Shown here in pieces: positions 1 to 39,474 of a stretch of DNA of 64,000 bases. Below the pieces are notes generated by a model, which was given only the letters and a program-made list of their open reading frames with translations, ran no database searches and had not been told where the DNA came from. The translations under genes were made by a program, and so were the position numbers. Location of the stretch: positions 1,730,218-1,794,217 of the forward strand of contig CP075365.1 in the NCBI GenBank assembly GCA_019454125.1, given 5' to 3'. The DNA is from Fimbriimonadaceae bacterium (GTDB taxonomy: Bacteria > Armatimonadota > Fimbriimonadia > Fimbriimonadales > Fimbriimonadaceae). The stretch's first letter is position 1. Every line of letters begins with the position of its first letter.

Positions 1-1475
1 TCTTCAGGCGTGTAGCCGTGGCAGTCTTTGCAGGGTGTGGTCTTCCACTCGTCGCCGATGTCGACCGGGTGCTGGAACTCCACGCCTTTCATGTTGCCCT
101 TGTTGTCGTGCGCGACAAAGGTGTGACAAGTATTGCAGTCGTTACTAATGACCCTGCCCGTGTCACTCTTCAGACGCCCGTTGTGGCAACGGAAGCAGCC
201 GTTACCCCGTAAGTGGTCAAGGTTGTTCCGGTGCGACCGCCAGTCCGTGTTCATCGCGGGGAAGTAGTTGTTCCGATAGATCTTTTGGAGTTCGGCTATC
301 GCTTTGTCGAGCTTCGCCCCGTCTTTTGCCATAAACTCGGCATAGTTCTCCTTGTAGTACGCCTTAAGCGTCTCCAAGATCTTGCTAAGCCCTTCTTCCT
401 TCGTCGCGTACTTTGCGTCAAGCGCTTCGACGCCTTTCATCTTAATTTCGGGAACGGCCCTGTCGATGGTGCCGGCGCTGATTGCCAGGTTCACAGACTC
501 GTCGGACGGGTGGAAAATGTGGGTCGGCCGGTTGTGGCAGTCGATACAGTCCACTTTGCGCGACACACCCTTCGCCACGTCGTTCGGGCCGAACTTTACG
601 GTCTTGTCCCAATACTTCGTGACCTTGCCATCCTTATCGACCATTTCGACATAAGGAATCTCCTGTCGCTCAAAGTCGCTGGCGATGTAGCTCACGGTGC
701 TGTTCAAGTACATGTGGGCATGGATGCCTTGTGCTTCCGGCCCTTCGCCACCGCCGATCTTAACGAGCATGCCGACCTGGGCGTGTGTGTTATCGGGATC
801 AGAAAGGTAGTAGTCATGCATCCGCAACTTTTGCGAAAAGAAGTGCTTGGGCCAGTGGCACTTTTCGCAGGTTTCTTGAGCCGGGCGGAGGTTCGCGATG
901 GGCGTTTTTATCGGCCGCTCGTATTTGTTAAAGATCGTTGAATAGACCTGGTAAGTCCCGGAAAGTTTTGACTTGACGTACCAATCGACGCCCTCGCCGA
1001 TGTGGCACCCGGCGCACGAGACACGGGCGTGGGGCGAGTTCTGATAGGCCACGTGCTCCGGCTCCATGAGCGAGTGGCACGTGGTGCCGCAGAACTCCAC
1101 CGACTCGGTGTACTCATACCCCTTATAACTCCCGAAACCCGAGATCGCCATAAGGAGCAGGCCGCCTACCGCAATCGAGGTGGCTGTGGCGCGGCCCCGC
1201 GGCTGGTTAAGGTCTAAGACCGGCAAGGTAGCCGTGGCGAGCCCCTTCTTCTGACGCCGTCTCTCAATGATGAGCCCGATGGCCGCCACACCAAGGCCGA
1301 GGAACATCAAGCCCGGCAGCGCGATGTAGGTGACCAACCCGCTATACGCGTTTGCAAACCCTCCAAAAATGTCGAACGCGATGAGGATAAGCGCGAGGAT
1401 GAACATGACCGTGGCGAAGGTCATCCCGAACATCGTTATCGCGTTGTTGAAAATGGAAGGTAAGCGCCTTTTCAT
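1..1475 (-). CDS. NapC/NirT-family heptahaem membrane cytochrome, ImcH-like (3' end outside window)
   Basis: Probable inner-membrane menaquinol-oxidising cytochrome feeding electrons to the periplasm. My reading from the ATG at 1475 gives three membrane segments (about residues 12-35, 46-70 and 98-115), then seven c-type haem sites: C129-GTT-CH (a CX3CH), CAGCH, CEKCH, CIDCH, CFRCH, CNTCH and CKDCH. The first site lies in the context EFCGTTCHSLMEPE, and SPHARVSCAGCH follows, as in NapC/NirT proteins. About 491 codons are visible before the window edge with no stop. Seven haems and this length fit the Geobacter ImcH type better than tetrahaem NapC. It is the last visible gene of the minus-strand cytochrome cluster, 80 bp after the cytochrome b fusion. 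The ImcH assignment is an inference; NapC/NirT membership is firmer. Confidence 0.85.
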   Translation of the reverse strand, partial: MKRRLPSIFNNAITMFGMTFATVMFILALILIAFDIFGGFANAYSGLVTYIALPGLMFLGLGVAAIGLIIERRRQKKGLATATLPVLDLNQPRGRATATSIAVGGLLLMAISGFGSYKGYEYTESVEFCGTTCHSLMEPEHVAYQNSPHARVSCAGCHIGEGVDWYVKSKLSGTYQVYSTIFNKYERPIKTPIANLRPAQETCEKCHWPKHFFSQKLRMHDYYLSDPDNTHAQVGMLVKIGGGEGPEAQGIHAHMYLNSTVSYIASDFERQEIPYVEMVDKDGKVTKYWDKTVKFGPNDVAKGVSRKVDCIDCHNRPTHIFHPSDESVNLAISAGTIDRAVPEIKMKGVEALDAKYATKEEGLSKILETLKAYYKENYAEFMAKDGAKLDKAIAELQKIYRNNYFPAMNTDWRSHRNNLDHLRGNGCFRCHNGRLKSDTGRVISNDCNTCHTFVAHDNKGNMKGVEFQHPVDIGDEWKTTPCKDCHGYTPE

Positions 1476-1555
1476 AATCCAGCCCCTATCCGCGTTTCAC
1501 GCGGTTTCTTTGTTGGTAGTATAGCTTGATGGAACATAGTGGTTGCAGCGTAATC

Positions 1556-3451
1556 TCAGGAAAGATCGGGCTCAGGCGTTTCCGTCGGAGGTTCCTTTGA
1601 GCCTTGCTCGACGTCATTCCCACCTTTTTGATCAGCTTCTTGTTCAGCTTCTGGCGGGGTGCCCGGGGGTTCGGGCTCGACCATCGCAGTCCCCTGACTT
1701 TGGGGACCCTCGGCCGCTAGGATCCTTTCCAGCTCAAGGGGGTGCTCGGCCCGCATCTCTTCCTCGGTGAGAGTGCCCTTAAGCCATACCGGATTCATGG
1801 GGAAGTGGTGCGGATTGAAGTGAGTGTTGTAGAGGTGCCAAGTCACGATCGTGAGCAAGGAAAGCACCGGTTCATAAGAGTGCGCGATGTACGCGATGGG
1901 TATGCCCGTATCCGGGAAGAACTGGCTGAAGTAGACCGGGTACCAAAGAATTAAACCCGTAACGATCATGATGGGCGTTCCCCACCCGACCGCTAGGTAT
2001 TCGAACTTTTCGCGGAAGTTATAGCGTTCGTATTTTGGCGGTTCAGGGGAAATGCCAAGGTGGTACCGAATGGTGCCCGCGACGTCTTCGAGGTCTTTCT
2101 TTCTCGGCATCATCGTCATGGCCGAAGCTTTGAATCCGTTCCGCTTCCAGCGAACCATCAGATCCAAGATGTGGTACAGCCAAGAGATGATGAGGACGAC
2201 ACCGGCGACTCGGTGCACGACGCGCAGGACGGGCATGCCGCCGAGCGCGTTATAGAAGGCGGTCAGTAGGTCGTTCTCAGGGAAACGGATCGGCAAGCCG
2301 GTGATGATCAGGAGGCTGAAGCTCACGACCAGGATCCCGTGCTGGATCCGTTGGGACTTGTCCATCCGGACAAACTTGCGCCCCTCGACCTCGACATGCG
2401 TCTTTTTCCGGCGTTGGAGGTGGCTATAGAGGGCGAGGCCAGCCAGGGCAAAGGCGACAATGGTCGCGAGCAGGCCACTGGCCTGCCCGAGGGCACCGAG
2501 CACGATCGCCACGACGAGGGTCAGGAAGCCGAGGCTGATCAGGATGGCGACAGGACGGCCCGTGGGGGGCGGCTCCTTGGCCGCGATCGCGCGACGAAGG
2601 TCGAGGATGATGCCGGTGGAGAGAAGCGTGATGACCGTGAAGGTCAGGACTTTGAAGAACATCTCCAAGCCGGCGAGGATCGGCTTTTGGTTGATCGTCA
2701 GGTACATGTGGTTCGCCCCAGAAGCCGCAAAGTTCATTTGGGCGCCGGGGTGGCAGTTGGCCTGCCCACACGTCTTAGGAAGGTTCGCTCGGAAGGTGCG
2801 CGACGTCGGGTCGGTCGAGTGCTTCACGTCGTGATATCCGTGGCAATCGGTGCAGACCGCCGTGTGAAGCTCGCCGAACTTCAGGAAAGCCTTCCCGTGG
2901 AAGCTGAGTTCGTAGCTGTGGACTGCGTCCAGGCTTGGGCCATAGCGGCCCATCGGCTCCTCGCTCCGGTGGCACGTGCCGCAGTTCTCAATGCGGTCTC
3001 GCTTAGGGAGGTTGACCAAGGGCACGATGCCGTGCGGATCGGAGTAGCTATGGCACCGGACGCAGGTGGGATGATCCCCCGGTCTTTTGTCGGGCCGGGC
3101 GTGGACGCTCGAGGCCCAGAGATCGGCTTCCTCTGAATGGCAGTCCGCGCAGGCGGGCGTGCTCTTCCGGGCCTCTTCAGAGTGCGACTCGTCCGCCTTG
3201 AAAAGCGAGTGGCAGTTGGTGCAGTCCAGCTCGCGGTGCGGGGAAGCGGCGAGCGCCTCGAGGTGCATCGCGGGGCCGACTTCGGCTTTGGGGTCGTGGC
3301 AACTCAGGCAGGCTTTGTTTTCTTCGCTCTGTTCGACGGTCTTTGTCTGGACGTTGGCTTGCTCCTGTCCGAAGACGAGTGCCACGAGCAGAGGCACGCA
3401 CGCGAAGACGAGGAGCGCGGCCGGCCGAGCTTTCCCTGCCGAGATGGCCAT
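1556..3451 (-). CDS. Heptahaem cytochrome c fused to b-type cytochrome membrane domain, CbcL-like
   Basis: Probable quinol-oxidising membrane cytochrome. A signal peptide (about residues 1-30, LLVFACVPLLVALVFGQ) is followed by a periplasmic part with six CXXCH sites (CLSCH, CTNCH, CADCH, CVRCH, CGTCH, CTDCH) and one CX4CH (CGQANCH). The second half has several membrane helices with conserved-looking histidines (IQHGILVV, VVHRVAG, WLYHILDL, VTWHLYNTHF), like HydC/FdnI-type b cytochromes. This c-then-b order matches Geobacter CbcL, which carries more c haems. The C-terminal 40 residues are Glu/Pro-rich. A TTG at 3454 precedes the ATG at 3451; AAGGA lies just upstream. It sits between the monohaem cytochrome and the ImcH-like gene. 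The function is inferred from architecture. Confidence 0.85.
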   Translation of the reverse strand: MAISAGKARPAALLVFACVPLLVALVFGQEQANVQTKTVEQSEENKACLSCHDPKAEVGPAMHLEALAASPHRELDCTNCHSLFKADESHSEEARKSTPACADCHSEEADLWASSVHARPDKRPGDHPTCVRCHSYSDPHGIVPLVNLPKRDRIENCGTCHRSEEPMGRYGPSLDAVHSYELSFHGKAFLKFGELHTAVCTDCHGYHDVKHSTDPTSRTFRANLPKTCGQANCHPGAQMNFAASGANHMYLTINQKPILAGLEMFFKVLTFTVITLLSTGIILDLRRAIAAKEPPPTGRPVAILISLGFLTLVVAIVLGALGQASGLLATIVAFALAGLALYSHLQRRKKTHVEVEGRKFVRMDKSQRIQHGILVVSFSLLIITGLPIRFPENDLLTAFYNALGGMPVLRVVHRVAGVVLIISWLYHILDLMVRWKRNGFKASAMTMMPRKKDLEDVAGTIRYHLGISPEPPKYERYNFREKFEYLAVGWGTPIMIVTGLILWYPVYFSQFFPDTGIPIAYIAHSYEPVLSLLTIVTWHLYNTHFNPHHFPMNPVWLKGTLTEEEMRAEHPLELERILAAEGPQSQGTAMVEPEPPGTPPEAEQEADQKGGNDVEQGSKEPPTETPEPDLS

Positions 3452-3523
3452 CAATCAGAGTCCTTTCTTGAGGATCCCGCCCTGCCCGACCACCTTGTCG
3501 AGCAGGGCGGAAGCGCTCGGTCC

Positions 3524-3853
3524 TTACCCTTTGCCGCCGGGAAGTTTGCCTTTCTTGATGGTGTCGAGGTTGTTCACCCCGTCCTTGTTAGAGTCCATCT
3601 TTTCGACGGCCTTCAGGTCTTCGACCAGCAGCTTCTTTCGCTTCGCCTTATCGACGACGACCTTGAGGTCGGCGCCGTAGGGGTTGAGCTTGCCTCCCTT
3701 AGCGCTCACGTGGCAGACCATGCACTTGGCCTTGCCCAGATCGGAGCCGGGGTCGACCTTGTAGAAGTCGTTGAAGGTCTTCGTCGCGGTCGCGAAAGCC
3801 ATGGCCATCGCGGCGGCGGAAAGGACGGTGACGATCGTCAGTGTTCTTTTCAT
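3524..3853 (-). CDS. Small secreted monohaem cytochrome c with calcium-loop-like motif
   Basis: A 109-residue protein with a signal peptide (MKRTLTIVTVLSAAAMAMAFA), a single haem site CMVCH near residue 46, and the acidic loop DSNKDGVNNLD near residue 87, which resembles an EF-hand or thrombospondin type 3 calcium loop. The start is the ATG at 3853, since upstream in-frame sequence reads as non-coding and the signal peptide begins here. Only 5 bp separate it from the ccmF stop, so the two are probably co-transcribed. It may be a periplasmic electron shuttle between the inner-membrane cytochromes and the outer-membrane conduit. The family was not recognised. Confidence 0.75.
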   Translation of the reverse strand: MKRTLTIVTVLSAAAMAMAFATATKTFNDFYKVDPGSDLGKAKCMVCHVSAKGGKLNPYGADLKVVVDKAKRKKLLVEDLKAVEKMDSNKDGVNNLDTIKKGKLPGGKG

Positions 3854-3858
3854 TAGGG

Positions 3859-6255
3859 TTATGTCCTTGTTGTTATGAGTTCTCGAGAGGCAGGGGACGT
3901 TTCTGTCCGGACAGGTTGGGCCGCCGTCTTGGGCACGCGTTGGCGTCGGTAGAGGGCGGCGAGGATGCCACCAAGGGTCATGGTGCCGGTTCCAAGCCAC
4001 ACCAGGCCCGTGAAGGGTTTGTTGAAGACCTCGACGGGGTAGATCATCGCGTCCTGTTCGAACACGATGCGGACCGATCCGTCCGCGGCGTCCATACCGG
4101 TCATCTTCAGGCGAAGGTCTTGACCCACGCCGACGGGATGGTTGATCGGGCCACCCTCGCCTAGCTCCATTTGGGGCTGGAGTTCCGTGACGTTCTCACC
4201 GTCGGTCAACTCGATGCGTGCGCCGAACTTCGTGCCTGTCACGCCGGCCTCACCTTCGCGGGTCATGCCCAGGTACTTGATCTTCCTTTTGTTGTCGATG
4301 GTGAGTTCTCCACCTTTTTTGAGCGAGAACTCGCGGCTCGTCTGGGGCTGCGGCGGGTAAAGGGTCACGTAGACGTCGTGGGCCGCATAGCGCTGGATCG
4401 AAGGCCACTGAACGGGGGTCAGTTCGCCGCCACCCATTTGGGTGTAGTAAAGGCCCGGCTTGGCGACGAAGAGGGGCTTTGTCGCATCCTTGCCCTTCGC
4501 GTCGAAGACCTTTATGAGCACTTTGTTCTCCTTGTCCGTAAGGTCAGACGTTCGACCGTCCAGCATCAGCACGTAGTCAAGGATCCGCGCCGGGTGGCCC
4601 TCCATCACGACCCCTTGCTCATGCCGTTCGAAGCCGCGCGAGAGAATGAGGCCGGCCAGAAGGACTGCAACGCCGATGTGGGACACGAACGAACCCATCC
4701 CGAGCTTTGAGGCTCTGGCCAACTCGACCATTCGCACGCCGTTTGCGACCAGCACGAAGAGGCAGGTTCCGACCAGGATCAAGACCCAGGGCAACCCGGG
4801 GACTTGCATGTTCATCGGGAAGGTGACCGACTTCGTCAAGTCAGCAATGCCCGCCATCGGCGTGAACTTGAGCCCGATGAGGGCGAAGCCTAGGAGGCCG
4901 ATGGTCACGCAAAACGCGGTGTAGGCCCGGCTAGCGAGCTCACGGGCCTTCATGCCCTTCCACGCGGCGAACGGCGCGACCGCCATCACCAGCATGAGTG
5001 GCACGAAGATGTACGGCAGCACCATGTGATAGGTGTGCTCCTCGACGACCGCCGGTTTGCGCCCGGAGAGCGCCATGAAGAGCGGCACGCTCATGCCGAT
5101 CATGGTGGCCACGCCCATCGCCGAGAGCAGGAGGACGCCGGTCCGGTAGAAGCCTTCACGGTTAAAGCCCTTGACCTCGTCCTCCGGCGCGTTCCGCTTG
5201 TCCTGGAAGTAGCGGACCCCCCAAAGGCCAAGGAAGCCCAGGGTCATGACGCTCATGAGGCCGATCAGGAGCTTCAGCGCGGAGCGGTCCATTTCCGCGA
5301 AGCTATGGACGCTGGCGTCGGCCAGGAAGCCCGACCTTGTGAGGAACGTGCCGTAAAGGAACGCAAGGAACGGCAGACCGCCAAGGGCGAGGTTCGTGAG
5401 TTTCCACTTGCCCCGCGAGGCTTGCACGATGAGGCCGTGGATGAACCCGGCGGTCAGCACCCAGGGGACGAAACTGACGTTCTCGACCGGGTCCCACATC
5501 CAGAACCCACCCCAACCGAGGGTCTCATAGGCCCAGAACCCGCCCATGCAAAGCCCGAGGCCGACTAGCGTGGTCGAGACGATGGCCCACGGTCTCACGA
5601 TCGGCACCCACTTGTCATAGTCGCGGATGATGAGCGCCGCCGTGGCGAGGGCGAAGAGCGCGGTCAGCGAACCAAAGCCCAGGAAGATCGTGGGGGGGTG
5701 GATGACGACCCAGTAGTTCTGGAGAGTCGGGGCGAGGCCGACGCCGTTGAGCGGCACCAGCGGCCTGCCCTCAAGCATGTTCAGCTTGAAAGGCGACTCA
5801 TAGGCGAGGATGCTCGCGATCGACCCCAAAAAGAGTGAGGTGACCGCCACATACCAACGCTTGTAAACGCCGGCTTTGGGCAGGACAAGGAGGCCGAAGA
5901 CGGCGGCGCAAACCCCCCAAAGAAGGAAGGAGCCCTCTTGGCCGGACCAGATGCCGGCGATCCGGTATTGCAGGGCGTTGCCGTGCTCGGCGTGCGCCCA
6001 GACATACGAAAATTCGAACCGGTCGTTGACGAACAGTGTCGCAAGGGCCGCGAACACGCCGAAGATTCCGGCGCACCCCGCGACGAAAGCCCACGAAGCG
6101 GCCTTCTCGCGCCACCTCGCGGGCGCGAAGACGGCCAGCAGGAAGGAGGCGGCAAAAAGGGTGGCGGTCAAAAGGACGAGCCCCCTGCCTATGTCTCCTG
6201 TTAACAGGGACCAGGATGGGGGGCTCGCGAAATCTGTGTGGGGCATCGTATCCAT
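3859..6255 (-). CDS. ccmF: CcmF/NrfE-type cytochrome c haem lyase
   Basis: Inner-membrane subunit of the system I haem lyase that attaches haem to apocytochrome CXXCH motifs. The 798-residue polytopic protein contains WSGQEGSFLLW (about residues 103-113), HPP (about 186-188) and the tryptophan-rich haem-binding WWD signature WGGFWMWDPVEN (about 248-259), then a large periplasmic domain near the C-terminus and a final helix. The length is a little above the usual 600-700. It lies inside the multihaem operon rather than in a ccm cluster, suggesting a lyase dedicated to these cytochromes. The start could be the ATG at 6255 or the one at 6246; no clear ribosome site is visible before either. Confidence 0.92.
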   Translation of the reverse strand: MDTMPHTDFASPPSWSLLTGDIGRGLVLLTATLFAASFLLAVFAPARWREKAASWAFVAGCAGIFGVFAALATLFVNDRFEFSYVWAHAEHGNALQYRIAGIWSGQEGSFLLWGVCAAVFGLLVLPKAGVYKRWYVAVTSLFLGSIASILAYESPFKLNMLEGRPLVPLNGVGLAPTLQNYWVVIHPPTIFLGFGSLTALFALATAALIIRDYDKWVPIVRPWAIVSTTLVGLGLCMGGFWAYETLGWGGFWMWDPVENVSFVPWVLTAGFIHGLIVQASRGKWKLTNLALGGLPFLAFLYGTFLTRSGFLADASVHSFAEMDRSALKLLIGLMSVMTLGFLGLWGVRYFQDKRNAPEDEVKGFNREGFYRTGVLLLSAMGVATMIGMSVPLFMALSGRKPAVVEEHTYHMVLPYIFVPLMLVMAVAPFAAWKGMKARELASRAYTAFCVTIGLLGFALIGLKFTPMAGIADLTKSVTFPMNMQVPGLPWVLILVGTCLFVLVANGVRMVELARASKLGMGSFVSHIGVAVLLAGLILSRGFERHEQGVVMEGHPARILDYVLMLDGRTSDLTDKENKVLIKVFDAKGKDATKPLFVAKPGLYYTQMGGGELTPVQWPSIQRYAAHDVYVTLYPPQPQTSREFSLKKGGELTIDNKRKIKYLGMTREGEAGVTGTKFGARIELTDGENVTELQPQMELGEGGPINHPVGVGQDLRLKMTGMDAADGSVRIVFEQDAMIYPVEVFNKPFTGLVWLGTGTMTLGGILAALYRRQRVPKTAAQPVRTETSPASRELITTRT

Positions 6256-6269
6256 GTCGAATTAGAGGG

Positions 6270-6291
6270 TGGAGGGGCTTGCGCCCCTCCA
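6270..6291 (-). terminator. Intra-operon GC-rich hairpin between octahaem gene and ccmF
   Basis: A perfect 9-bp stem (TGGAGGGGC / GCCCCTCCA) with a TTGC loop lies 13 bp after the stop of the octahaem lipoprotein gene and 15 bp before the ccmF start. No T-tract follows on the minus strand, so it is more likely a partial terminator or an mRNA-stabilising or processing structure that sets different levels of the two halves of the operon. Confidence 0.4.
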
Positions 6292-6303
6292 CAGGTCAGT
6301 CCG

Positions 6304-7740
6304 TCAGAAGCCTTTGGCGTCTGCTCGGTTCGATCGGGCGCGGGTTTCTTCGATCACCTTGCGCATCTGGGCGACGCTCACGCCCTTTTTCTGCGGCCGG
6401 CCGACGTTGACACTGTCAAGGTTGTCGTTGGCGACCTGGATCAGGTGCTTGGCGTACGGGGCGTTGTGGACTCCGTAGTCGCCCGAGCGCACCACGAAGT
6501 AGTAGTTGTGCCGGGCACGCTTCAACTCGATCGGGACGAGGTTCTGGTCTGGCGGGGTCTTGCCCTCCGCCGTGATGACGCTCGTGTAGTCCCAGAGGTC
6601 AGCGTCGCCATAGTTCGCTTGGGCATAGGCTTCCATGCGGTTCTTCAGGGCGAAGAGCTGGCCGATGACGTCGTCGCGAGTCGATGTGGCGCGGGCCGCC
6701 GCGTCAGCGGGGGTATGGCAGGGGTTGCAGCCCTTGTCATAGCTGACCGTGAACGTGTGGCGCGAGTCCGGCATGTGGCACTTGGAGCACTGGCCGGGAG
6801 CTTGCGAGTGGGCCGTGTTCCTCTTGACGGGGCCTCCTCCTTCCACGCCGCCGAAGCCCAGCAACATGTTGTACTGGTTGCTGTCGTGCATGTTCGGTCG
6901 GGCGGTGCCGTTCTGGAGCGCTTGGTCAGCCGGGTTGGCACCGCGACCGTTGTGGCACTGGGCGCAAATGTGATTGAACTTCGTGAAGTCCGCCGGCCTG
7001 CTGCCTGCGCCGACCGTCGTCGTGTCCGTGCTGAAGACGGCGTGCCGAAGCTGGGCTTCTTTGCCGTTGTCGGTCAAGTTCTTCGTCTGGGCGTGCGGGT
7101 TGTGGCACGTGGCGCAGGTGGCCGTGTGCGGAGACTCGGTCAGCGTCTCATCGGCGAGCTTGATGATCTCCTCGTCGGTGAGGCTCCCCAGGTCCACTCC
7201 CTTGTCGTTCTCAACGCGGAAGATGTTGCTGTGGCACGCGACGCAGCGGTTGGTGCGGCCATAGCGATCGGGGTTGTTGACCGCCTCTTCCACCGGGGAT
7301 TGCAGTAGCTTGCTGTGGGCGCTGGCCTGCCACTCGTCGTAGGTCTTGCCGTGGCACTGGGCGCAGACGACGGCGGAAAGGCTCTTCGGCGAGGTCAAGA
7401 TGTTCTCCGCCGAGGGATTGGCCTGGTGGGCGCTTCCCGGCCCGTGGCATCGCTCACAGGTGACCCCGACGCTTGCGTGCTTGGTCTCCTGCCAGTGGGC
7501 GAAGATCTGCTCGCCGCCCTCGGCCCGGCCGTTGTGGCACGTACCGCAGGCGTCGGCCCCGATGTAAGAGGCGTTCTTCTGCGCGGGCGTGAGGAGGGCA
7601 AGGAACTGCTCGGTGACCCCCGGAAGCCCGCCACCGTTACCGCTGGTAGGCCCTCCTTCGCCGCCGCAGCTCGATACCGAGATGAGCGCTGCCGCTAGCG
7701 GCACGACAGCGAATAGAGTGACGAACCACTTAGCTTTCAT
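6304..7740 (-). CDS. Octahaem cytochrome c lipoprotein (possible surface or periplasmic electron carrier)
   Basis: A 478-residue protein starting at the ATG at 7740, with AGAGGAA just upstream. The signal sequence ends in a lipobox-like VSSC (cysteine about residue 23), followed by a Gly-rich linker, predicting a lipid-anchored protein. Eight CXXCH motifs are seen: CGTCH, CERCH, CAQCH, CVACH, CATCH, CAQCH, CSKCH and CNPCH. The paired spacing and CHGPGSAH context resemble cytochrome c554-type multihaem proteins. The gene follows the MtrB-like barrel by 50 bp. By position it may play the role of MtrC/OmcA, the outer-face terminal reductase, although its localisation across the outer membrane cannot be read from sequence. 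Confidence 0.85.
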   Translation of the reverse strand: MKAKWFVTLFAVVPLAAALISVSSCGGEGGPTSGNGGGLPGVTEQFLALLTPAQKNASYIGADACGTCHNGRAEGGEQIFAHWQETKHASVGVTCERCHGPGSAHQANPSAENILTSPKSLSAVVCAQCHGKTYDEWQASAHSKLLQSPVEEAVNNPDRYGRTNRCVACHSNIFRVENDKGVDLGSLTDEEIIKLADETLTESPHTATCATCHNPHAQTKNLTDNGKEAQLRHAVFSTDTTTVGAGSRPADFTKFNHICAQCHNGRGANPADQALQNGTARPNMHDSNQYNMLLGFGGVEGGGPVKRNTAHSQAPGQCSKCHMPDSRHTFTVSYDKGCNPCHTPADAAARATSTRDDVIGQLFALKNRMEAYAQANYGDADLWDYTSVITAEGKTPPDQNLVPIELKRARHNYYFVVRSGDYGVHNAPYAKHLIQVANDNLDSVNVGRPQKKGVSVAQMRKVIEETRARSNRADAKGF

Positions 7741-7790
7741 GATGTTCCTCTGCTTGTCCTGTTTCCTTGATTGCGAGATGGGATTGCGTT

Positions 7791-9443
7791 TCAAAACTTC
7801 ACCGTCCAGTTGAGCCCGAAGAAGGTGGCGCGGTAGCCGTACGTGTCGTCGACGCGGTCTTTGTACGCCCACGGGGCGACGAAGAGTTCGAGCGTCTGGC
7901 GCTCGCCCAAGTCGCGCCGCAAGGTGGCGGTCAATTCCGTGTTCCGCACGTTGCCCTCTGGCAAGCCCAAGGGGTTGTCGTTGTTCGCGAACGTGTGCTG
8001 GATCGCGAGCGAGAACGACGTCGCATCGTCGAACTGGTGGGCCGCCCCGAAGGCGATGCTGGTGGCGGAGGGGAAGTACCCGTCCAATTCCGGGTTCCCG
8101 GCCACGCGGTACTGCTCACCATAGACCTCGGCGTACGCTTGGGTCCGCTCGTTGAACGTATAGGCCGCACCGACCGTCAGCGTGTTGAGCGAGATCTCGA
8201 CGTTCCGAGGCTCGTTCTGCCGGAAACGGTAGCCATAGCTCGCATAGGCGTTCAGCCTGTCCCAGTCGAAGTCGATGCGGGCGTCCAGCTTCGACCTATC
8301 GTCCCACCAGAGTGAGCGGAAGTCGGTGCCGGTCTGGACCTTGGGGAGGCTTTGCATGTGGTCGATCGAGCCCCGCACCGTGTAGTGCCAGGCGCTGCCC
8401 AACCGGCCAGAGACCCGCGCTTCGAACTCGTTCCACTTGGGGACGTCGACGTAGGACTGGTCGCTGCGAAGCCGCTCGTACTCACGGTGCCGATAGGCCA
8501 GCTGCACGTTCGCAGCCCGGGAGAAGCGGTGCGAGAGCTTGGCGCCCGAGACCCATTGCTGGCGGACGAACGCGTTCTGCACGGCCGGCAGCGAGAGGTC
8601 GACCCGGCGGAACTCGGCGCTCAGGTTCGTTTCCGGCCCGATGTCCCAGCCCCCGCGAAGGGCGAGGCTCTTGACGTTGCTGTCCCGCTCGTTCCGTTGC
8701 TGGATGCGGGTGGTGGCGTAGACCCCTTCCAGGCTGACGTCCGGGGTGACGTCGATCCCGTAGGAAGCGTCGACCCGGCGATAGATCGTCAGCGGCAGGG
8801 CGTCGTTGCGCTCGTTGAACCTCTCCTCGCTCGCGGTGACGGCCAGTGTCCCGCCGAGGACCTGGCCCTGGGTGCCGACGGCGGTCTCACGTGTGTAGGT
8901 GTCGAGGGACGGCTTCGGGCCTTCGTAGTTCTTGTTCTGCTTCCGCTCGCGGTAGCTGGCGAAGGCTACGATCCCCGGCGTGAACCGGTACGAAAGAGCC
9001 GCACGCGTGAACTGGTCGCGGCTGTCCGGGAAGACCACCGGCGAGGGGTCGTCATAGTTGAACCGGTTTGCATCGAGATCGATCCGGGCGCGCCCGTTCG
9101 CGAAGATCAGCGTGCCCTGTTGCACGTTGTCGCTGAGCCACGTGCCGTTAAGCCGCAGGCGGCCCCAAGGTTGGCTCGCGCCGTCCCCCGGCAGGATCGT
9201 GGAGAACTCGACGAGGTCGAACCCTTGGACGGGGGTCGCGTACTGGAACAGCTTGTGCGAGTTCCGCGTAATGTCCCGACCCCGGTAGCCGATGGTCAGC
9301 TTGGACCAAGCGGGCGGCGGGGTTTCAGGTTCGTCCGTCGCCGTGGCCGACCCTTCCTCTTGGGCGACGGCGAGGACCGCGGTCGTCAGGAGGGCAAGGA
9401 TCGTCAGGCGTCGGGAAAGCCAAAGGCTGGAACCGGTGGTCAT
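7791..9443 (-). CDS. MtrB/PioB-like outer-membrane beta-barrel protein
   Basis: A 550-residue protein with a signal peptide (about residues 8-28, ending AVAQ), then a long run of amphipathic strands rich in Tyr, Arg and Asp and a terminal Phe (LNWTVKF), typical of outer-membrane barrels. Its ATG overlaps the stop of the decahaem gene (ATGA at 9443-9440), so synthesis of the two proteins is probably coupled. MtrA-type cytochromes insert into MtrB-type barrels, and this gene pair fits that model. It is shorter than Shewanella MtrB and I see no cysteine, hence no N-terminal CXXC. The family assignment rests on fold style and context and is less certain than the barrel prediction. Confidence 0.75.
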   Translation of the reverse strand: MTTGSSLWLSRRLTILALLTTAVLAVAQEEGSATATDEPETPPPAWSKLTIGYRGRDITRNSHKLFQYATPVQGFDLVEFSTILPGDGASQPWGRLRLNGTWLSDNVQQGTLIFANGRARIDLDANRFNYDDPSPVVFPDSRDQFTRAALSYRFTPGIVAFASYRERKQNKNYEGPKPSLDTYTRETAVGTQGQVLGGTLAVTASEERFNERNDALPLTIYRRVDASYGIDVTPDVSLEGVYATTRIQQRNERDSNVKSLALRGGWDIGPETNLSAEFRRVDLSLPAVQNAFVRQQWVSGAKLSHRFSRAANVQLAYRHREYERLRSDQSYVDVPKWNEFEARVSGRLGSAWHYTVRGSIDHMQSLPKVQTGTDFRSLWWDDRSKLDARIDFDWDRLNAYASYGYRFRQNEPRNVEISLNTLTVGAAYTFNERTQAYAEVYGEQYRVAGNPELDGYFPSATSIAFGAAHQFDDATSFSLAIQHTFANNDNPLGLPEGNVRNTELTATLRRDLGERQTLELFVAPWAYKDRVDDTYGYRATFFGLNWTVKF

Positions 9444-10429
9444 CGCTTAAGCAACTCCGGGCTTGTGTTGCTCCCGTGGGGAGCGGTATGGCAGCCGGCC
9501 GTCCAGCAAGTCCGGCCCGGGTAGTGGTTCTGGAGCCGGTCGGTGTGGCACTGGGCGCAAAGGCCGCGGGAGAAGGAGTTCAGCATCTTCGGGTTGTTCG
9601 AGCCGTGCGGTTTGTGGCACTCCATGCACCCGTCGCCGCTGTGCCCCGCCACCGGGTCGTGCTCGAAGACGAACGGCCCTCGGAACTCGGTGTGGCAGGT
9701 GACGCACTTGTCCCGGTCGTCCTTCACCTTCACCTTGTCGCCCTTGGTCGCGTGGACGGTGTGGCAGTCGCTACAGAGCATGCGGCCTTCAGGGACGGGA
9801 TGGTGCGTGGAGAGCCGGAACTGCGCGGCCTGGGCGCCGTGGCAGGAGCCGCAGAGCGTGGCTTCGTCCGCGCGGAGAAGGTTCTTCGATTCCCGCCTTG
9901 CCGTGAAGACCGGCGCCTTGGTCTCGGAGACTTTGCGCAAACCCTTCATCGGCAGGGCCGGGTCGGAATCGGGGTGGATCTGGTGGCAGCTCACGCAGGC
10001 GAGGTCGGCCTTGGCGTGCTCGGAGCGCTTCCAGTGGGTCGGGCTCAAGGTCGCCTCGTGGCAACGCAGACAGGCCGCCGAGGATTCTTTCGGGTCCATC
10101 TTGCGGAAGGCGAGCACCTCGGCGTTCTCGTCCGCCTGGTGGATGGCGCCCGGCCCGTGGCAGCCCTCGCAGCCCTGCTTCTCGATCGAGAGGCTGGCGT
10201 CGTGCATCACGGCCGAGTGGGCGCTCCCCGCGAAGGCCGTGACCTTTTCGCCGTGGCAGCTGCTGCAGAACTCGTCGCCCATGAAGTCGTCCGCCTTGGC
10301 GCGGGCGAAGAGCTTCTCCGCCTGCGAAGGCTCGTGCTTCGCCTGCTGCGCTTGCGAAGCCGCCCCATAGAACAAGGTGCCGAGGCCAAGGAGCAAGACG
10401 AGCGTCTGCGCCTTAAAAACTTGCCTCAA
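9440..10429 (-). CDS. Decahaem cytochrome c, MtrA/DmsE family
   Basis: Periplasmic decahaem electron carrier expected to sit inside the MtrB-like barrel. It has a signal peptide (about residues 5-25, ending ASQAQQ) and ten haem sites: CSSCH, CEGCH, CLRCH, CVSCH, CGSCH, CSDCH, CVTCH, CMECH, CAQCH and a final CX4CH (CWTAGCH). About 329 residues and ten haems match MtrA/DmsE/PioA proteins. The start is TTG at 10429, chosen because AAAGGAG lies 6 bp upstream and the signal peptide begins there; a longer in-frame ATG at 10540 would add an unlikely basic extension. It is the first gene of the cytochrome operon, and its stop overlaps the barrel gene start. Confidence 0.88.
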   Translation of the reverse strand: MRQVFKAQTLVLLLGLGTLFYGAASQAQQAKHEPSQAEKLFARAKADDFMGDEFCSSCHGEKVTAFAGSAHSAVMHDASLSIEKQGCEGCHGPGAIHQADENAEVLAFRKMDPKESSAACLRCHEATLSPTHWKRSEHAKADLACVSCHQIHPDSDPALPMKGLRKVSETKAPVFTARRESKNLLRADEATLCGSCHGAQAAQFRLSTHHPVPEGRMLCSDCHTVHATKGDKVKVKDDRDKCVTCHTEFRGPFVFEHDPVAGHSGDGCMECHKPHGSNNPKMLNSFSRGLCAQCHTDRLQNHYPGRTCWTAGCHTAPHGSNTSPELLKR

Positions 10430-11746: not shown

Positions 11747-13171
11747 CTAAGGCGTGGCGGCGGTGCCGTTAAAGTAGGTCAAGGCCTTCTCCCAGACCTG
11801 GCGGCCGACCTCGCGGCCCATCGTCCGCGCGTTCAGGTCACCGTCCGCGAAGTGGATGCCACCCAACCGGCGGGAGAGACCCGCCTCGTCTGCCGCGGCG
11901 CTGAAGGTGGGCCAGGAGAGGGTGGTCGCCGTTTGCGGCGTCACGCCGGGCTCCGTGGTGGACTGGCCGGGACCCCAAGAGACCGAGGCGCCGAACCGGT
12001 CGCTGCCTGTGAACCGCTTCAAGACCTCCGCGCTAGCCGCGCTGAAGGTGCTATGGCCCGACGTGTACTCGGCGAACGGCGGGGTGATGAAGGTCGAAGG
12101 CTGGTAAGGGACCCATTCGGAGCCGTCCATGTCCACGACGCCCTTGCCGGGGCCGCCCCAGCCCTTAATGGTCTTGCCCGCGTAGAGGAAGCGGATCGCC
12201 GTGATCGGGCGGCAGAAATCATAGAAGCGCTTGGACTCCCAGCAGCAGATGCCCGCGTCCAGCACCGCGTTGCCCACCAGGAAGAACATCTTCACGTCCT
12301 CGTCGATCCCGTGGCCGTCGCGTTGCGAGACGTACTGCGCAAAGAGGCACCAGTGCCCCGGGGGCAGCTCGCTGTGGGGACCGTTCGCCCAGTATTCGGC
12401 GATCATCTTCTCCTTGTCCGTCAGGTTCGCGGTGAGGTTCAAGACCTCGTCCGCGCGCTGCTTGTACATGGGATCCGGATAAAGCTTCGGCGGGGCAGGG
12501 CGCAGAGCGGCCGCGTTCGTAATGGCGAACGACCTGACGTTGCCCCAATGCGGGGTCAAGAAGCCGGGCGCCTTTCCGTTCGAGAACCGCAGTGGCTGCC
12601 AGCGGTTGGGGTCGTTGATCGTGTCCACCGTGTTGACGGGGGTATAGCCGCTGGTGTCCGCATAGCCGTTCTGCTGGTTGCTGCCGTCCGTCTTGCGATA
12701 GTCCAGGACCGCCTGGGCGGCACGGTTGCCGATGCCGGCCGGGGTCGTGCCGAAGCTGGTGAAGTTCGCGTCGTAGCCGAGCTGCACGAGCAAGGCGTCG
12801 AACTTCGCCTTCTCGGTCGGAAAGAGGTCCGCCAAGGCGCGGCGGGCGGCAAAGCTCACCGCCTCCTCCTTGTTCTTCGTCGTCATCTCGATGCGCGGGC
12901 GGCGGAGGCTGCCCCCGAGCCGGGTGCCGACGGCGACCTTGTCATAGGGCGCCCAAGCCTCGTACATCGCGGTGTGGACGATGGCGATGGCTCGCGAGCC
13001 GGGCGTGGGGCCCGGGCTCACATCGCGGATCGCTTGCAGCAGGGCTTCGTTCCAGAGAACAACGACGGTCTTGGATCGGGGGCCGGGAGCGGCCTGGAAG
13101 GACGAGCCACCGCACCCGATTGCAGAAAAGGCAAGCGCAAAGACCAATGCACGGCCAGCGAATTGAGCCAT
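11747..13171 (-). CDS. Vanadium-dependent haloperoxidase-like lipoprotein (PAP2 superfamily)
   Basis: A 474-residue protein with a lipoprotein signal (FALAFSAIGCGG) and the three phosphate/vanadate-binding motifs of the PAP2/haloperoxidase fold: K-x6-RP (KRFYDFCRP), TSGHST, and RRLGGIHF with the putative vanadate-ligand His. Family enzymes oxidise halides with peroxide or act as phosphatases; which applies here is unknown. The large N-terminal helical region and length match bacterial vanadium haloperoxidase-like proteins. The start is the ATG at 13171; an upstream extension would run through the tRNA-Leu gene and is rejected. Lipid anchoring suggests action in the periplasm or at the outer membrane. 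Confidence 0.82.
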   Translation of the reverse strand: MAQFAGRALVFALAFSAIGCGGSSFQAAPGPRSKTVVVLWNEALLQAIRDVSPGPTPGSRAIAIVHTAMYEAWAPYDKVAVGTRLGGSLRRPRIEMTTKNKEEAVSFAARRALADLFPTEKAKFDALLVQLGYDANFTSFGTTPAGIGNRAAQAVLDYRKTDGSNQQNGYADTSGYTPVNTVDTINDPNRWQPLRFSNGKAPGFLTPHWGNVRSFAITNAAALRPAPPKLYPDPMYKQRADEVLNLTANLTDKEKMIAEYWANGPHSELPPGHWCLFAQYVSQRDGHGIDEDVKMFFLVGNAVLDAGICCWESKRFYDFCRPITAIRFLYAGKTIKGWGGPGKGVVDMDGSEWVPYQPSTFITPPFAEYTSGHSTFSAASAEVLKRFTGSDRFGASVSWGPGQSTTEPGVTPQTATTLSWPTFSAAADEAGLSRRLGGIHFADGDLNARTMGREVGRQVWEKALTYFNGTAATP

Positions 13172-13236
13172 GTCCTTATTATTAGCCACATCGGCACCCT
13201 CTGTAGCGATTTTTAGCAGCAGGTAAACTTTTTTGT

Positions 13237-13326
13237 GGACTGGGCGAGTGGCGGAATTGGTAGACGCGCTGGGTTTAGGTTCCAGTGCCGCGAGGCGTGT
13301 GGGTTCGAGTCCCACCTTGTCCACCA
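13237..13326 (+). tRNA. tRNA-Leu (anticodon TAG)
   Basis: A 90-nt class II tRNA with the Leu-type D-arm (TGGCGGAATTGGTAGACGC), anticodon loop TTTAGGT giving anticodon TAG, a long variable arm (TGCCGCGAGGCGT), a T-arm with GGTTCGAGTCC, and encoded CCA. The acceptor stem GGACTGG / CTTGTCC has one T-T mismatch at pair 5 and one G-T wobble. It reads CUN codons, mainly CUA. Confidence 0.93.
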
Positions 13327-13336
13327 ATGGCGAAGG

Positions 13337-13390
13337 CACCCTCGCCCCTCTGGGGGAGAGGGTCGGTGAGCGGAGCGAACCGGGGTGAGG
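13337..13390 (+). repeat. Dispersed intergenic repeat, copy A
   Basis: A 54-bp element with an ACCCTC...GAGGGT stem-loop, then a core (13357-13390) ending GAACCGGGGTGAGG. The 34-bp core recurs inverted at 54879-54912 with a single mismatch. This copy sits just after tRNA-Leu and before the stop of a convergent gene. Confidence 0.8.

Positions 13391-38331: not shown

Positions 38332-39474
<1,143 letters not shown>

Follow-up and report, generated by a model that had tools for sequence, protein, structure and literature searches.

The left end of a 64,000-nucleotide stretch of the Fimbriimonadaceae bacterium genome (GCA_019454125.1, contig CP075365.1, positions 1,730,218 to 1,794,217; hereafter the window) carries a cluster of multihaem cytochrome genes together with a gene for an outer-membrane β-barrel. 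The question raised by this locus is whether the cluster encodes a conduit that moves electrons from the quinol pool to the outside of the cell, as had been claimed in the original prediction. We consider it likely that it encodes an outward porin-cytochrome conduit spanning the envelope, with an octahaem cytochrome in the place of MtrC. This reading is based on gene content, haem motifs, family and fold matches, gene order, an invariant cysteine and co-occurrence with quinol oxidases.

Seven genes lie in a row on the minus strand at positions 1-10429 (Table 1), in the order predicted. Between the decahaem gene and the barrel gene there is a 4-bp overlap, and the other gaps are 5-80 bp. The predicted number of 33 c-type haem motifs was reproduced, comprising 30 CXXCH, one CX3CH and two CX4CH. 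Nine CXXCH and one CX4CH belong to the decahaem protein, eight CXXCH to the octahaem protein, one to the monohaem cytochrome, six plus one CX4CH to the heptahaem-b fusion (b-fusion), and six plus one CX3CH to the ImcH-like protein. This density is not due to chance. Of the CXXCH in the three minus-strand frames, 30 lie in 1-10429 and 1 (at 38675) in the other 53.6 kb, while the three plus-strand frames of the window hold 1 in total. Residue shuffles gave means of 0 to 0.08 CXXCH per protein with a maximum of 2.

Table 1. Genes of the cluster, with positions in the window.
Position	Strand	Product	Evidence
9440..10429	-	MtrA/DmsE-family decahaem cytochrome, 329 aa, TTG start	motifs, TIGR03508, 6r2q_A match, invariant His
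7791..9443	-	26-stranded outer-membrane β-barrel, MtrB-like by fold	AlphaFold2 model, Foldseek, VIA-align
6304..7740	-	octahaem cytochrome, predicted lipoprotein, proposed surface terminal cytochrome	motifs, Cys25, synteny
3859..6255	-	CcmF/NrfE-type haem lyase	PF01578, PF16327
3524..3853	-	small monohaem c-type cytochrome, ATG start at 3853, probable periplasmic carrier	one CXXCH, N-terminal hydrophobic stretch
1556..3454	-	heptahaem c domain fused to b561/FdnI-type membrane domain, CbcL/MtrH/MtoC-like quinol oxidase	PF01292, motifs
1..1475	-	ImcH-like heptahaem quinol oxidase, last 22 bases beyond the window's left edge	three N-terminal helices, CX3CH, PF03264

The decahaem protein proved to be of the MtrA/DmsE type. 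It scored 198.5 bits with TIGR03508 (DmsE family), above the curated cut-off of 192.2, and 29/29 aligned homologues matched the same model at E <= 1e-20. It also matched 6r2q_A, chain A of 6R2Q, with an E value of 1e-32 as a single sequence and 6.6e-47 as a profile, both halves being covered. We take this chain to be MtrA; 6R2Q holds the Mtr complex, but its entry gives chain A a molecule name that does not agree with this identity. Ten histidines outside the haem motifs are invariant in 29/29 sequences, which would be enough for bis-His ligation of every haem. The tenth motif, CX4CH, is kept in 41/41 sequences, and AAAGGAG lies just 5' of the start codon. Since the protein passes a DmsE-named model, extracellular respiration of dimethyl sulphoxide or iodate might be proposed. 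This is very improbable, because the cluster has no DmsA-type gene and only one protein of the genome matched PF00384 (molybdopterin), namely NuoG (TIGR01973 504.8 bits, cut-off 470.05), whose gene adjoins nuoK, nuoL and nuoM (all above cut-offs) and a nuoJ-like gene.

The barrel protein contains no cysteine and ends in phenylalanine. An AlphaFold2 model built from six sequences has 26 strands, a mean predicted local distance difference test score (pLDDT) of 78.1 and a predicted template modelling score of 0.67. Foldseek placed 6r2q_B first among solved structures (E 3e-10), and VIA-align gave this chain a Z score of 22.7 over 484 residues at 3.9 Å, the next best being 17.6. We take 6r2q_B to be MtrB, which has 26 strands. 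The prediction of an MtrB-like barrel therefore stood for the fold and did not stand for the sequence. The window barrel had no match at E <= 0.1 to the NCBIfam MtrB/PioB model TIGR03509, which was matched by 1/30 barrel homologues (E 0.0031). Its weak sequence matches were Porin_4 and GSU2204, the latter being the sole NCBIfam match, and comparison of its profile with Protein Data Bank sequences gave two partial porin matches of ∼4e-6 with the rest above 0.6. On the modelled structure the barrel is MtrB-like by fold, though unmatched by the MtrB/PioB sequence model. That it might be an unrelated porin, a doubt attached to the original prediction, does not hold as far as the fold comparison reaches, its nearest solved fold being MtrB.

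The octahaem protein is taken as the functional counterpart of MtrC. Its lipoprotein-type Cys25 is invariant in 28/28 aligned homologues, and the protein is predicted to be lipidated and exposed at the surface. The window copy matched neither the OmcA/MtrC model TIGR03507 nor PF22113 (MtrC/MtrF domain II/IV family) at E <= 0.01. At E <= 0.001, PF22113 was matched by 12/28 homologues, and PF02335 (cytochrome c552, NrfA) was matched in part by 16/28, the window protein included. The best solved relatives of the octahaem profile were 6qvm (2.6e-17) and 6i5b (1.6e-15), each over part of the length. We take 6i5b to be OcwA.

Partial profile matches also include nitrite and sulfite reductases, namely NrfA, MccA and the octahaem nitrite reductase. 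Together with the PF02335 matches, they raise the alternative that the octahaem protein acts, at the surface or in the periplasm, as a reductase of a soluble nitrogen or sulphur compound, fed by the decahaem wire and the barrel. OcwA bears on both sides of this question, as it is a cell-surface cytochrome with iron-reducing activity that is structurally like octahaem nitrogen and sulphur enzymes (PMC7829351; papers are cited throughout from the parts of their text that were available). That likeness keeps the alternative alive, while the rank of 6qvm and 6i5b as best matches speaks against it, as does the absence of a CXXCK motif from the protein. Seven non-motif histidines are invariant in 28/28 sequences, one position is His in 26 and Met in 2, and one more His is found in 26. 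The conserved histidines would suffice to ligate all eight haems, with no sign of an obligatory vacant haem. Such a reductase is quite unlikely in our judgement. The related doubt, that the cytochromes belong to a nitrogen- or sulphur-oxide pathway, does not hold as far as the PF00384 result reaches, nitrite, nitric oxide and nitrous oxide reductases having been outside the genome-wide searches.

The host belongs to Armatimonadota, as its named relatives confirm. Among 291 genomes of the phylum, the barrel was found in 63, representing 32/156 genera (E <= 1e-5), the octahaem protein in 61 (E <= 1e-20) and the decahaem protein in 95 (E <= 1e-20, many of these weak or partial). Loci from 40 of the 63 barrel genomes were compared; they were picked for holding the barrel, so the neighbours are the test. 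The decahaem gene lies directly upstream of the barrel gene in 39/40 loci and 0.8 kb upstream in L072. In 38/40 the octahaem gene is downstream of the barrel, no more than 1.6 kb away and in the same orientation. The exceptions are L061, which stops at a contig end, and L071, whose genome (G172) has no octahaem match. CcmF occurs within 4.5 kb downstream in 20/40 loci and monohaem homologues in 21/40. CbcL-like genes were present in 11/40 stretches and ImcH-like genes in 3/40. Among the listed matches across named contigs (80 loci), five are named as Armatimonadota (one of them Chthonomonas), and 5/5 carry the three-gene unit.

Some loci depart from this plan. L065 (G041:C261) carries a tandem duplication, in which decahaem-barrel and a monohaem gene are followed by decahaem-barrel-octahaem. 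Two octahaem genes stand in tandem after the barrel in L052 (G083:C35; 422 and 605 bits). In 3/3 loci fetched from family f19 (L050, L056, L057), a second 8-haem frame of ∼370 aa lies between the barrel and octahaem genes, and at E 1e-6 it matched none of the eight cluster proteins.

A tree of the concatenated decahaem and octahaem sequences, rooted on two Verrucomicrobia sequences, broadly follows taxonomy. It places the 25 tips of the host family and one tip of the host order together (support 0.94) and leaves two other families undivided. Contrary points are that f17 is not whole, that f11 falls inside f13, that several inner supports are low, and that the root depends on those two sequences. 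Given this broad agreement with family labels, the simplest reading, though not the sole one, would be that the unit was inherited within the phylum and lost repeatedly. Recent acquisition from outside the phylum was considered and is not favoured, as the host-family tips group together. The three core proteins have their nearest relative in G146.

The two remaining multihaem proteins have the architecture of ImcH and CbcL, as had been predicted. Published features of ImcH are three helices, a CX3CH, 5-9 CX2CH and a NapC/NirT-like segment (PMC6295460). Compared with this description rather than with a reference sequence, the cluster protein fits all of them, with helices near residues 11, 45 and 96, the CX3CH at 129, six CXXCH, and a PF03264 match at 98-188 (43.9 bits, cut-off 24.1). 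The CbcL plan comprises N-terminal c-haems and a C-terminal HydC/FdnI-like b domain with about six helices (PMC6295460). The b-fusion fits this CbcL/MtrH/MtoC plan, again by description. Its c-haems at 49-229 are followed by membrane helices with PF01292 at 363-541 (53.2 bits, cut-off 30.1), and five hydropathy windows follow the haem domain, an approximate helix count.

ImcH-like genes lie within 11 kb of a decahaem match in 7/20 ImcH-bearing genomes of the phylum (G000, G100, G141, G143, G148, G149, G177), the ImcH-like protein being only 36-38% identical in G148 and G149 and the decahaem match weak (160 bits) in G177. The nearest relatives of the cluster's ImcH-like protein are in G143 (73%) and G144 (69%), and no ImcH-like match was found in G146. 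Because these relatives differ from those of the three core proteins, the ImcH-like gene may have its own history.

The monohaem cytochrome had no match in Pfam. The CcmF/NrfE lyase matched PF01578 (87.3 bits) and PF16327 (62.1 bits), both above cut-offs. The second CcmF of the genome, at G000:C1:1303450 (1.30 Mb), is 44.6% identical to the cluster CcmF. The cluster CcmF is closer to the copies near the unit in relatives, which are 46-67% identical to it for 20/21; the L072 copy, on the other strand, is 30% identical.

Taken together, the ImcH-like and CbcL-like proteins would be two alternative inner-membrane oxidases drawing electrons from the quinol pool. Electrons would pass, perhaps via the monohaem cytochrome, to the MtrA-type decahaem wire inside the 26-stranded barrel, then to the lipid-anchored octahaem cytochrome on the outer face, and finally to an external acceptor such as Fe(III), Mn(IV), humic quinones, an electrode or a partner cell. 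Assembled in this way, the route across both membranes would be complete. The extra CcmF could help to load the many haems. The host genome is a single contig of 2.65 Mb (97.1% complete) with one COX1, located near an ACIII/Qrc-like set that includes a multihaem subunit (scores under the curated cut-offs). Matches of the cytochrome c7 type (PF14522, E <= 0.1) were found only in the cluster and at this set, other cytochrome families being outside the genome-wide search. In the host, the conduit would serve as an outlet under anaerobic or overflow conditions, next to an aerobic chain of NADH dehydrogenase, ACIII/Qrc-like complex and cytochrome oxidase.

The outward direction is suggested because ImcH has so far been implicated only in quinol oxidation (PMC6295460) and no RuBisCO was found in the genome. 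An inward conduit of the MtoAB/PioAB kind would instead take electrons from extracellular Fe(II) or another donor to reduce quinone for the aerobic chain. MtrA homologues include MtoA and PioA, an Armatimonadota homologue was placed nearer PioA/MtoA than MtrA/DmsE (PMC9671151), CbcL/MtrH/MtoC homologues are present in Fe(II) oxidisers (PMC6295460), and the genome has a COX1. PioAB and MtoAB, however, are described without an extracellular multihaem part (PMC6344600), whereas here 38/40 loci retain, alongside the pair, an outer multihaem protein bearing a lipoprotein signal. The ImcH-like oxidase in the cluster and the failure to find RuBisCO, in searches that left out other fixation routes and Cyc2, also point away from the inward direction, which we regard as unlikely.

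Several results weigh against an outward conduit, beginning with the TIGR03509 result for the barrel and the reductases among the octahaem profile matches. The octahaem structure model is too poor to use (mean pLDDT 45.9). The PF00384 search for anaerobic reductases was not exhaustive, as it missed the genome's own Qrc-like protein. In G126, a same-genus genome that is 98% complete, none of the barrel, decahaem, octahaem, ImcH-like and CbcL-like proteins found a match. The CbcL-like family is described as bidirectional (PMC6295460), and its homologues outside the host family also occur without a decahaem protein, e.g. in G230-G232. Co-occurrence within the host family (85 genomes) speaks for the conduit: 14/14 ImcH-bearing genomes (Fisher 3.7e-7) and 19/19 CbcL-bearing genomes (Fisher 4.4e-10) fall among the 34 with a decahaem protein, in tests that ignore relatedness and genome gaps and with one of the 19 (G076) a fragment. 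Against it, ImcH-like proteins were not found in 20 of these 34 and CbcL-like proteins in 15.

MtrCAB of Shewanella (6R2Q) shares with the cluster the MtrA-family decahaem wire and the 26-strand barrel, MtrB being the best solved match. It differs in that the cluster barrel is unmatched by the MtrB/PioB model, an octahaem protein, unmatched by either MtrC model in its window copy, forms the outer partner, and two other quinol oxidase types take the place of CymA. With Geobacter GSU2203-GSU2204 (NF041028/NF041027) the decahaem protein scored 194.9 bits to the GSU2203 model and the barrel 27 bits to GSU2204, both far under the curated cut-offs of 325 and 350. The ImcH-like protein shares with Geobacter ImcH three N-terminal helices, the CX3CH and the NapC/NirT-like part, and the b-fusion shares with CbcL the N-terminal c-haems and the HydC/FdnI-like b domain, with seven c-haems versus nine in CbcL. 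Unlike in Geobacter, both oxidases here share one cluster with MtrAB-like genes. In a 2018 survey no mtrAB or mtoAB was adjacent to imcH, and Armatimonadetes are missing from its phylum table (PMC6295460).

Novel porin-multihaem clusters have been reported in Verrucomicrobia (PMC5615132, PMC6344600), and two Verrucomicrobia loci found here, L077 and L079, presumably correspond to them. In each, three genes lie in a row, for an octahaem relative (170 and 137 bits; 9 and 7 CXXCH), for an MtrA-like protein whose last motif is likewise CX4CH, and for a ∼740-aa product with a terminal phenylalanine. Their gene order differs, and the MtrA-like protein has 7+1 motifs. The ∼740-aa frames gave an hhalign probability of 10% against the barrel and had no Pfam match, leaving homology unsupported. 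The loci may represent a sister system. The CX4CH motif was considered as the mark of an Armatimonadota-only system and dropped, since both Verrucomicrobia MtrA-like proteins carry it.

Within Armatimonadota, MtoAB-like proteins have been reported in mg024, of class UBA5829, and Cyc2 in mg022, with cytochromes of six or more haems only in HRBIN16 and UBA5829 genomes among those studied (PMC9671151). The mg024 proteins are an MtrA-family and MtrB-like pair from the same phylum. They come from another class and, in the available text, no outer cytochrome or quinol oxidase is named; the comparison with the cluster is by description only. The claim of a lineage with no described conduit was therefore too strong, given this report and a barrel in 63/291 phylum genomes. 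Multihaem cytochromes of unknown function are noted in one Armatimonadota taxon (PMC11788075). Elsewhere mtrCAB was found in three phyla, with Armatimonad unmentioned in the available main text (PMC8805035), and the available parts of PMC4821891, PMC7358590, PMC9755228 and PMC6137239 mention the phylum without reporting a conduit from it. Other porin-cytochrome clusters have been described as types PCC3 and PCC4 (PMC5566968), and the field has been surveyed generally (PMC11475568). Among the papers listed in searches of open-licence PMC literature, none was found to describe an MtrAB conduit in Fimbriimonadia. As far as these searches reach, the phylum-wide conserved unit, the non-MtrC outer cytochrome and imcH beside mtrAB-like genes are new.

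It is possible, though we would not yet call it probable, that an early Armatimonadota ancestor passed on an MtrAB conduit of a separate class, with a lipid-anchored octahaem protein from the NrfA/OcwA side of the multihaem proteins replacing MtrC as surface reductase. In members of the host family this would have become part of an operon complete in itself, with a haem lyase and both low- and high-potential quinol oxidases, and unrecognised external respiration would be common in the phylum. Few Armatimonadota are cultured, and they occur in soils. They are also present in anammox reactors (PMC4821891, PMC7358590) and hot springs (PMC9671151). If the conduit works, about one fifth of the sampled genomes, counted by the barrel, could belong to organisms that respire with minerals, humics, electrodes or partner cells. 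As a conserved set, the three genes can serve as a marker and as a small cluster to express, and their octahaem product would be another natural solution for the outer end of an MtrAB wire. With imcH beside mtrAB-like genes, the division of work between ImcH and CbcL becomes testable in one operon.

The surroundings of the cluster were also inspected. A promoter and terminator scan of the cluster gave nothing better than shuffled sequence, and a PHROGs scan of one neighbouring frame gave no match. G+C content is 0.56-0.66 in the cluster vs 0.63-0.67 to its right, the ImcH end being lowest. The complete ImcH-like gene (L002:15197-16693) encodes 498 aa, and 51 bp past it, on the same strand, lies a thioredoxin-like gene (L002:14585-15145; PF13899 43.3 bits, cut-off 27). 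A FeoB ferrous-iron transporter gene (FeoB_N 183.2 bits) is located at L002:6164-8317 (+), ∼7 kb beyond the window's left edge. It is on the opposite strand to the cluster and separated from it by other genes, e.g. for adenosylhomocysteinase. On the other side, window positions 11747-13339 (-) encode a vanadium-haloperoxidase-like protein (DUF6851, VCPO_2nd). Its true start is probably further in, because the longest frame overlaps a tRNA-Leu gene on the opposite strand (13242-13326, +).

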